Shown in pieces: positions 24,386 through 26,476 of a stretch of 36,190 nucleotides of DNA (the stretch's first letter is position 1; each line of letters starts with the position of its first letter). The position numbers and the translations under genes are program-made. This DNA comes from an uncultured Eubacteriales bacterium. Lineage in GTDB: Bacteria > Bacillota_I > Bacilli_A > RF39 > UBA660. Location: contig OMST01000030.1 of the NCBI GenBank assembly GCA_900313815.1, positions 1-36,190 of the forward strand, in the 5' to 3' direction. Under the pieces are notes generated by a model. It was not told the origin of the DNA and did not search any database. It saw nothing but the letters and a program-made list of their open reading frames with translations.

Positions 24386-24426
24386 CTTTACTTTATTTTG
24401 GGGTATAATAATATTAGGTGATATTT

Positions 24427-25761
24427 ATGTGGAGAGCTATTGTTATTTTAGGATGTAAAGTAACTAATAAATTAAGTAAATTAACTGGACATGGTGGTAG
24501 TACTATTGGAGGAAGAATTGCTTTAAAAGTATATAAAAATATATTAAAGAAAATTAAACTGCCTAAATATGTTATAGGGATAACTGGTTCTAGTGGTAAA
24601 AGTTCTTCTACTGAACTTGTATATAACATATTAACTAAAAACAATATGAAAGTTGTTTATAATAAAGAAGGAAGTAATACTATTACAGGTATCGCATCAC
24701 TTATATTAAATAATTCAAGTCTAACTGGTAAGTTAAAAGCAGATGTATTACTTATGGAATTAGATGAACAATTCTTAAAATATATTTTTAAAGAAATTAA
24801 ACCTACTCATTTAATGATTACAAATATTACTAGAGATCAACCCCCTAGAAACTCTCACCCTATTAAAATATTTAAAGCAATTAAAAATGCTATTCCGGAT
24901 AAAACACATATTATTATAAATGTAGATGATCCTTTGGTTAATAGAATGAGAATTAATCATAAAGGAGGAGTTACTACATATGGTATTGATAAAAACGATT
25001 ATTCAATGAAGATTAATCTTAATAATTTAGATGCAGCTTATTGTCCAATATGCAATTCTAAATTAGAATATGATTTTTATCATTATGGACATATAGGAAG
25101 TTATCATTGCCCTAAATATCATTTTAATAGAGGTAATCCTGATTTTGAAGCAAAAGATATTGATATAGATAATAAAACAATTACTATAAATGAAAATAAA
25201 ATTAATTTACCTTCTGATTTCTTATATACAGCTTATTTTGTAACAGGATGTTATGCATTATGTAAAATAATTGGTATAGATGATAAAGATATATTAAAAG
25301 TATTAAATGATGAAAATATTAAAACTAAAAGATTAGAGATATATAATTTCCATAATAGAAAATGGCAATTATTAGTTAGTAAGAATGAAAATAATTTAAG
25401 CTATAAACAATCACTTGATTATATTAGACATCAAAAAGGAGATAAAACTATAGTACTTGGATTTGATAATTCAAGTAGACGTTATAAAGAAAATGATATT
25501 TCTTGGATATGGGATATAGATTTTGAAATATTAAATGATTCTTCAATAAAAAATGTAGTTTTAATTGGAAGATTCTGTTATGACATGTTATTACGTATGG
25601 AATACGCAGGTATTAATTCGGATAAATTAATACTTGTAGAAAATATGTCTGATTTAGCTAGTGCAATTAAAGATAAAACAACTGGTGATATATATTCAAT
25701 GAACTGCTTTGATAAAGAAATAGAAATTAAAAAAATAATTAAGGAGGAAAATAATGATTAA
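24427..25761 (+). CDS. murT: MurT-like lipid II isoglutaminyl synthase subunit with altered zinc ribbon
   Basis: Mur-ligase-type subunit that, with GatD, amidates D-Glu of lipid II. P-loop ITGSSGKSSST (52-62, in place of TGTNGKTT), central NITRDQPPRNSHP, and the C-terminal SWIWDIDFE block (which in S. aureus carries the Asp that completes the GatD catalytic triad). A zinc ribbon starts C206PIC209 and continues YHC228PKYH: the usual fourth Cys is Tyr231, with His232 next to it. 444 residues is normal. I chose ATG 24427 because AGGTGA precedes it; the upstream GTG overlaps that site. A TATAAT -10 lies at 24404-24409. It overlaps gatD by eight bases. Confidence 0.92.
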   Translation: MWRAIVILGCKVTNKLSKLTGHGGSTIGGRIALKVYKNILKKIKLPKYVIGITGSSGKSSSTELVYNILTKNNMKVVYNKEGSNTITGIASLILNNSSLTGKLKADVLLMELDEQFLKYIFKEIKPTHLMITNITRDQPPRNSHPIKIFKAIKNAIPDKTHIIINVDDPLVNRMRINHKGGVTTYGIDKNDYSMKINLNNLDAAYCPICNSKLEYDFYHYGHIGSYHCPKYHFNRGNPDFEAKDIDIDNKTITINENKINLPSDFLYTAYFVTGCYALCKIIGIDDKDILKVLNDENIKTKRLEIYNFHNRKWQLLVSKNENNLSYKQSLDYIRHQKGDKTIVLGFDNSSRRYKENDISWIWDIDFEILNDSSIKNVVLIGRFCYDMLLRMEYAGINSDKLILVENMSDLASAIKDKTTGDIYSMNCFDKEIEIKKIIKEENND

Positions 25762-26476
25762 TATTTTACATTTATATTATGACCTTCTAAATTTATATGG
25801 TGAAAATGCTAATACTAGATGTATAGTTAATAACCTAAAAAGAAATAATATTAAAGTTAATTTGGATTTAAAAAGTATTAAAGATAAAGTAGATTTTACT
25901 AAATATGATTTAGTTTATATATCTTGTGGAGATGAAGAAGCTATTGAAATGGCTCTTAATGATATATTAAGATTTAAAGAAGAATTAAATAAATATATTG
26001 AATCTAATAAGTATTTAATATTAACCGGTAATGCTATGACATTGTTTGGCAAGAATATTAAGACAAATGAGAGAACTTTAGATGCTCTTGGTATATTTAA
26101 CTATAAAACAGAATATATTACTTCTGGTGGCTTTAAAAATGCCTCAAGTGACAGAATTGTTGGTGAAGTACTTGGAACAACATCACTCATAAAAGAAAAA
26201 ATAATAGGATTTCAAAATAGATGTGATTATATATATGGTATTAAAACTCCATTATTTAAATTAAATACTAAATTTTCTAATAATGGAAAAGATACATCAG
26301 AAGGATTTACATATAAAAATGTTTACGCAACACATACTATTGGTCCTCTATTAATTAGAAATCCATATCTTACAGATTATATATTAGATAAATTATGTAA
26401 AGATAAAAAATTAAAATATAAAGCAGTAGATGATACATCTAAACTAGCATATAAAAAATACTTAAATATTAATTAA
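25754..26476 (+). CDS. gatD: GatD-like class I glutamine amidotransferase, catalytic residues missing
   Basis: The partner of MurT, normally supplying ammonia from glutamine. The fold matches GatD end to end: LHLYYDLLNLYGENANTRC at the start, IGFQNRCDYIYG in the middle, and NPYLTDYILDKL near the end. The nucleophile motif, ICGGYQFLG in S. aureus GatD, reads LTGNAMTLFG here, so Cys94 aligns with Gly92. The HGPLL motif that supplies His189 reads ATHTIGPLL, with Ile in the His place and a His two residues earlier. Glutaminase activity is therefore unlikely as usually understood; it may be structural, or the complex may use free ammonia. AAGGAGG precedes the ATG inside murT. Confidence 0.9.
   Translation: MINILHLYYDLLNLYGENANTRCIVNNLKRNNIKVNLDLKSIKDKVDFTKYDLVYISCGDEEAIEMALNDILRFKEELNKYIESNKYLILTGNAMTLFGKNIKTNERTLDALGIFNYKTEYITSGGFKNASSDRIVGEVLGTTSLIKEKIIGFQNRCDYIYGIKTPLFKLNTKFSNNGKDTSEGFTYKNVYATHTIGPLLIRNPYLTDYILDKLCKDKKLKYKAVDDTSKLAYKKYLNIN

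Follow-up and report, generated by a model that had tools for sequence, protein, structure and literature searches.

Several Gram-positive pathogens cannot do without the MurT-GatD complex, which has been described as glutamine-dependent. Glutamine is captured by Arg128 in GatD of Staphylococcus aureus, while Asp32 of Streptococcus pneumoniae GatD is the literature candidate for the third catalytic residue. In the S. aureus enzyme, MurT without GatD is inactive with any donor, GatD C94G loses glutamine-dependent amidation with NH3-dependent amidation at pH 8.5 unaffected, and at pH 7.5 the complex does not use ammonia (PMC3266927). Vertebrate CPS1 lost the Cys of its GATase domain and uses free ammonia (PMC4655335, PMC7657897).

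The window analysed here, the whole stretch of 36,190 nucleotides, contains a murT-gatD pair (Table 1) which resembles those of S. aureus and S. pneumoniae in gene order, in fold, in the ligase residues of MurT and the equivalent of its Asp349, as well as in the GatD equivalents of Tyr17 and Arg128, the acidic residue corresponding to S. pneumoniae Asp32, and the GP-x-N-P interface loop. Unlike the GatDs of these two species, however, it has neither a nucleophilic Cys nor a catalytic His, the oxyanion GGG is changed to G[SM]G and CGGYQ to GN[SA]x[ED]; MurTs of its clade differ by the KNEN and SRRY insertions and by the GSSGKG P-loop. The Cys-to-Gly replacement is the same as in the S. aureus C94G mutant (PMC3266927), and the predicted consequences are also the same, namely the loss of glutamine use and the retention of ammonia use and of the need for GatD. 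In contrast to C94G, the change in the clade is natural and ancient, and is accompanied by His loss and by remodelling of the pocket and of MurT. The structural retention of a glutaminase domain after Cys loss and, presumably, the use of free ammonia by the synthetase are shared with CPS1 (PMC4655335), which differs in its unrelated synthetase, in the replacement of Cys by Ser, in the fusion of its GATase domain and in having no link to the cell wall.

Table 1. Location of the murT-gatD features in the window and of related ORFs in other contigs
Feature	Position	Strand	Remarks
murT, Mur-ligase-like partner	24418..25761	+	447 aa; Mur_ligase_M and MurT_C domains
MurT P-loop GSSGKS (57-62)	24586..24603	+	GSSGKG[ST] in the clade vs. 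canonical GTNGKT
MurT K322-N323-E324-N325	25381..25392	+	K-N-P loop of canonical MurT, lengthened by 2 residues
MurT S353-R354-R355-Y356	25474..25485	+	clade-specific; DNAAD here in S. aureus; immediately before Asp360
MurT Asp360	25495..25497	+	equivalent of Asp349, which completes the triad in S. aureus MurT-GatD; kept despite the lost His
gatD homologue without catalytic Cys/His	25754..26476	+	240 aa and stop; intact ORF
GatD Glu17 codon	25802..25804	+	matches the third-residue candidate (S. pneumoniae GatD Asp32); E/D in 40/40
GatD Thr91-Gly92-Asn93 codons, old nucleophile elbow	26024..26032	+	Gly92 at the position of S. aureus Cys94
GatD Arg134 codon	26153..26155	+	aligns with S. aureus Arg128; retained in 37/40
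GatD Ile196 codon	26339..26341	+	replaces catalytic His189 (HGP to IGP); I/L/V in all main-clade relatives
ORFs of 75-80 aa, alike in appearance, in relatives	L201:6297-6527, L199:9956-10189, L208:7300-7539, L209:6217-6447, L034:2295-2522, L035:2326-2568	divergent to murT
Second murT of the same genome	L084:34-1374	-	446 aa; contig C58

A GatD homologue without the catalytic cysteine and histidine

The assignment of the ORF to GatD is supported by its match to the NCBIfam GatD model NF045636 (E=6e-26, 91.3 bits, which lies below the curated cut-off of 400 bits), by a Pfam GATase_3 match exceeding the cut-off, and by the phmmer similarity to S. aureus GatD 6gs2 (E=1e-21). The AlphaFold model of the protein (pLDDT 92.8, pTM 0.91) has the class I GATase fold of GatD type, with S. 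aureus GatD 6h5e_A as the best PDB match in Foldseek (TM 0.86, E 6.5e-22). The first-pass annotation regarded the gene as intact and well conserved and as coupled to murT, a description that holds: the reading frame is open over its whole length, its start overlaps the end of murT by 8 bp, and relatives keep the gene beside murT.

A profile-profile alignment in which 40 relatives are set against 20 canonical GatDs (E=1.8e-54) places the canonical Cys at Gly92 and the canonical His at Ile196, the two positions named previously, and the residue counts on either side of the elbow also favour Gly92 as the Cys position. Thr91, which a single phmmer alignment with S. aureus GatD had offered as the aligned nucleophile, was rejected on the basis of the profile alignment and the flanking lengths, and the register given in the first-pass annotation is upheld. 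The codons at these sites, ACC-GGT-AAT for Thr91-Gly92-Asn93 and ATT for Ile196, include ordinary Gly and Ile codons, which rules out recoding or a stop codon; the AGG and one CGG reassignment described in uncultivated Bacilli belong to the order RFN20 (PMC8629427). T91 and G92 are present in 40/40 sequences and N93 in 37/40, and in the same alignment no Cys is conserved and no active-site position has acquired a conserved His. A repositioned Cys-His pair, the finding that would have argued against catalytic loss, is thereby rejected for the clade. As indicated by the secondary-structure strings, the strand in the model of the canonical GatD L048 extends to Ile93, Cys94 is located in the turn and the helix begins afterwards, while in the model of the window GatD the helix begins already at Gly92, which is what relaxation of a strained nucleophile elbow would produce.

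The window GatD is almost certainly a pseudo-glutaminase, and its sequence makes glutaminase activity very unlikely. The possibility of glutamine hydrolysis by an unusual nucleophile, such as Thr91, or with MurT contributing residues, would fit the invariance of Thr91 beside the elbow, its phmmer pairing with S. aureus Cys94, and the presence in the window protein of both Tyr15 and Arg134. It is nevertheless highly improbable, considering the assignment of Gly92 to the Cys94 position by two approaches, the regular helix start predicted for the elbow, the lack of a conserved Cys and of a conserved His at the old site, and the fact that even C94S abolishes S. aureus GatD function (PMC6113224). 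The retained Arg134 may mean that GatD still binds a ligand.

Spread across the order and the MurT partner

Our survey covered the order with 146 genomes, nearly all of those listed belonging to a single family. To judge from sporulation genes and the literature, among other evidence, this order is probably RF39. A GatD homologue was found in 49 of them and MurT_C in 48, in the same genomes, the odd one corresponding to a contig end; in every relative whose contig reaches far enough, murT adjoins gatD. The active-site motifs, read in all 49 GatDs, have the Cys-less form TG[N/T/S/D] with [I/L/V]GP in 48, the sole canonical GatD (CGG/HGP) being that of G014 (L048). The search for the same change in related genomes, suggested in the first-pass annotation, shows that GatDs throughout the order are Cys-less as a rule, and because the same kind of replacement occurs in 48 of the 49 gene-carrying genomes, chance or a sequencing error can be dismissed. 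The same form is encoded in nine further MAGs, whose titles name Tenericutes, Bacilli, Clostridia or Firmicutes. Two more deep groups within the family are also Cys-less, one of them occurring in G124, G027, and G143 as a second MurT-GatD pair. Among the GatDs of the class that were read outside the family, all are canonical except that of G193 (L067, TGC/IGP). The matches listed in the phylum-wide search, and hence the survey for the Cys-less form, are confined to the same class. A canonical second GatD was found neither in the genome of the window (67.5% complete) nor in relatives with the Cys-less form, and the same search does detect a canonical GatD (G014, E=1e-30). No report of a Cys-less GatD was found in the literature searched, in which subscription journals were mostly beyond reach.

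The canonical pair of G014 (L048/L087) includes the only canonical GatD of the family, and its MurT clusters with the canonical MurTs from a different family, a pattern suggestive of horizontal replacement.

Both domains of the window MurT score above the cut-off (PF08245, 40.7 bits; PF08353, 78.8 bits), and the protein retains the ligase residues, namely P-loop Lys61, Asn87, Glu114, Asp116, Lys322, and Asp360. The position of the Mg-binding Thr60 is occupied by Ser62 in the window and by Gly in 85% of main-clade MurTs. Besides the P-loop, two loops distinguish the clade. E324 is present in 100% of its MurTs and absent from canonical MurT, and in the SRRY loop the conservation amounts to 100% for S353, 96% for R355 and 98% for Y356. 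The DNAAD motif found there in S. aureus is thought to touch residue 3 of the stem peptide (PMC6113224). Of a Cys4 zinc ribbon, C209, C212, and C231 are present, the fourth residue being Tyr in the window (Tyr234) and in the three relatives nearest to it, and Cys in many others. In the MurT tree, obtained by a quick search without bootstrap for a protein independent of the trait definition, the MurTs paired with canonical GatDs and those paired with main-clade Cys-less GatDs separate once each (SH-aLRT 99 and 98). MurT has co-evolved with the Cys-less GatD.

The genome of the window encodes a second, deeply divergent MurT (L084), with the P-loop GTNGKSTT and no Asp349 equivalent. Its gene ends 33 bases from the contig start and the expected gatD falls beyond, so that a second gatD may be absent from view in this incompletely recovered genome; relatives of the L084-type MurT also have Cys-less GatD. 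Several relatives carry, upstream of murT and divergent to it, an ORF of 75-80 aa that looks alike among them and has no Pfam match in the one copy scanned; it was not found beside the window murT.

Constraint on gatD and the cell-wall context

The dN/dS values are 0.05-0.15 for the closest gatD pairs, about 0.2-0.4 for more distant ones and 0.36-0.42 for pairs with the window gene, the higher values being subject to AT bias and saturation. Mean column entropy at the former active-site and interface positions of GatD, a set picked from the literature and the alignment, is 0.75 bits vs. 1.90 bits elsewhere, and none of 20,000 shuffles gave a value as low; the elbow and His-loop core is looser than in canonical GatD (1.10 vs. 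0.35 bits). The reduced size of these genomes and the presence of the pair in only about one-third of the genomes of the order could be taken as signs that GatD is degenerating and functionless. That reading is already largely refuted, and we find it scarcely credible, as the ORF is open in nearly every genome, the new residues are invariant, the closest pairs show low dN/dS (the values of the window pairs being affected by compositional bias), and MurT co-occurs in essentially every genome with GatD.

The pseudo-active site is strongly constrained, with no drift in the new residues T91, G92, N93 and R202, which are invariant or nearly so. Together with the retention of Arg134 and with the gain in MurT, at the GatD/substrate junction or close to it, of the invariant E324 and of S353-x-R355-Y356, this would suit a clade MurT that joins another amine, e.g., glycine or another amino acid, to the alpha-carboxyl of D-Glu, the remodelled GatD pocket binding or delivering the amine. 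Amino acids are indeed the usual additions of Mur ligases. Such a function seems unlikely, though, as the conserved residues could serve purely as an interface. To our knowledge, glycine on the alpha-carboxyl occurs only in other bacterial groups.

Peptidoglycan loss was rejected as the reason for the Cys-less GatD, since every one of the 146 genomes contains MraY (over the cut-off in 134). The genome of the window encodes MraY and pieces of Mur ligases, including MurE with DNPR, usually a DAP-type signature. Most relatives tested carry MurE, mostly with DNPR, plus other Mur ligases, which agrees with the prediction that RF39 is of the m-DAP type (PMC10868615). The murT-gatD pair neighbours murG-murB-ftsQ in G111, G106, L034, and L035 (named by profile in G111 and by sequence start in the others), and a murC-like gene is located near it in G124.

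Five genomes encode two MurE-like proteins each, with DNPR vs. DDPH/DDPY as the specificity motif: G012 (L150/L163), G114 (L146/L164), G096 (L149/L166), G083 (L151/L162), and G074 (L152/L165).

No MurC, D, E or F was detected in G111 (L198, L199), a single contig of 1.26 Mb, or in G022 (L200, L201), which is 94% complete; the sole protein of Mur-ligase fold in each is MurT. For this reason lipid II is doubtful as the acceptor in these two genomes. The presence of MurT alone there, the occurrence of a second, deeply divergent MurT in some genomes, that of the window included, and the replacement of the DNAAD motif are compatible with a repurposed envelope ligase complex acting on an acceptor other than lipid II. 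We regard this as rather improbable, because MurE and further Mur ligases occur in most of the relatives tested, and in several genomes the neighbours of murT-gatD are peptidoglycan genes. Moreover, even G111 and G022 retain MraY and PBPs: G111 has, in addition, MurG and MurB, its PBPs numbering two, and G022 an FtsW/SpoVE-type protein, its PBP being of SpoVD type. A more inclusive proposal may be entertained tentatively, in which a natural MurT-GatD family has dropped glutamine in favour of another amine on the D-Glu alpha-carboxyl or of another envelope acceptor, with a non-catalytic pocket in GatD and a new Arg/Tyr loop in MurT.

Ammonia as the putative donor

Of the 146 genomes of the order, 145 lack glutamine synthetase (PF00120), and all 14 control genomes were positive; for the genome of the window itself, gene absences rest on family searches. 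Members of the order therefore probably import glutamine. The PyrG proteins of relatives keep an intact glutaminase motif, so these cells have not generally abandoned glutamine. The absence of GlnA may be tied to the Cys-less GatD, although it extends to genomes without MurT-GatD and to the canonical G014.

The first-pass annotation left three options unranked, i.e., free ammonia, another donor, or a different job in cell-wall biology. Of the three options, ammonia is the best backed, by the behaviour of S. aureus C94G (PMC3266927) and by the near-absence of glutamine synthetase. The best single explanation, in which we have middling confidence, is a MurT-GatD complex with a pseudo-glutaminase GatD, in which MurT would amidate the lipid-linked stem peptide (lipid II) with free ammonia. 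GatD would keep its fold, the loops that bind MurT and a large part of its pocket, and would be unable to hydrolyse glutamine. MurT, as an ATP-dependent Mur-type ligase, would convert the D-Glu alpha-carboxyl of a lipid-linked, probably DAP-type, stem peptide to an acyl phosphate, and the attack of free cytoplasmic ammonia would give D-isoglutamine, GatD acting as an obligatory non-catalytic partner of MurT. An inert GatD would be retained because MurT is inactive without GatD, as in S. aureus (PMC3266927), and the behaviour of S. aureus C94G makes an inert but obligatory GatD, with ammonia as the natural donor, plausible; for the use of free ammonia after Cys loss, CPS1 is a proven precedent (PMC4655335, PMC7657897). 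The failure of the S. aureus complex to use ammonia at pH 7.5 speaks against ammonia use unless access is better in the clade enzymes, of which the remodelled MurT loops give an indirect hint.

A conserved Cys-less GatD in an order of gut bacteria would be a natural counterpart of C94G and a cell-wall parallel to the step that made CPS1 ammonia-dependent. It also cautions that the annotation of GatD from homology does not imply glutamine-dependent amidation. By setting what GatD contributes structurally apart from its work as a glutaminase, the Cys-less GatDs provide a ready set of proteins for testing.
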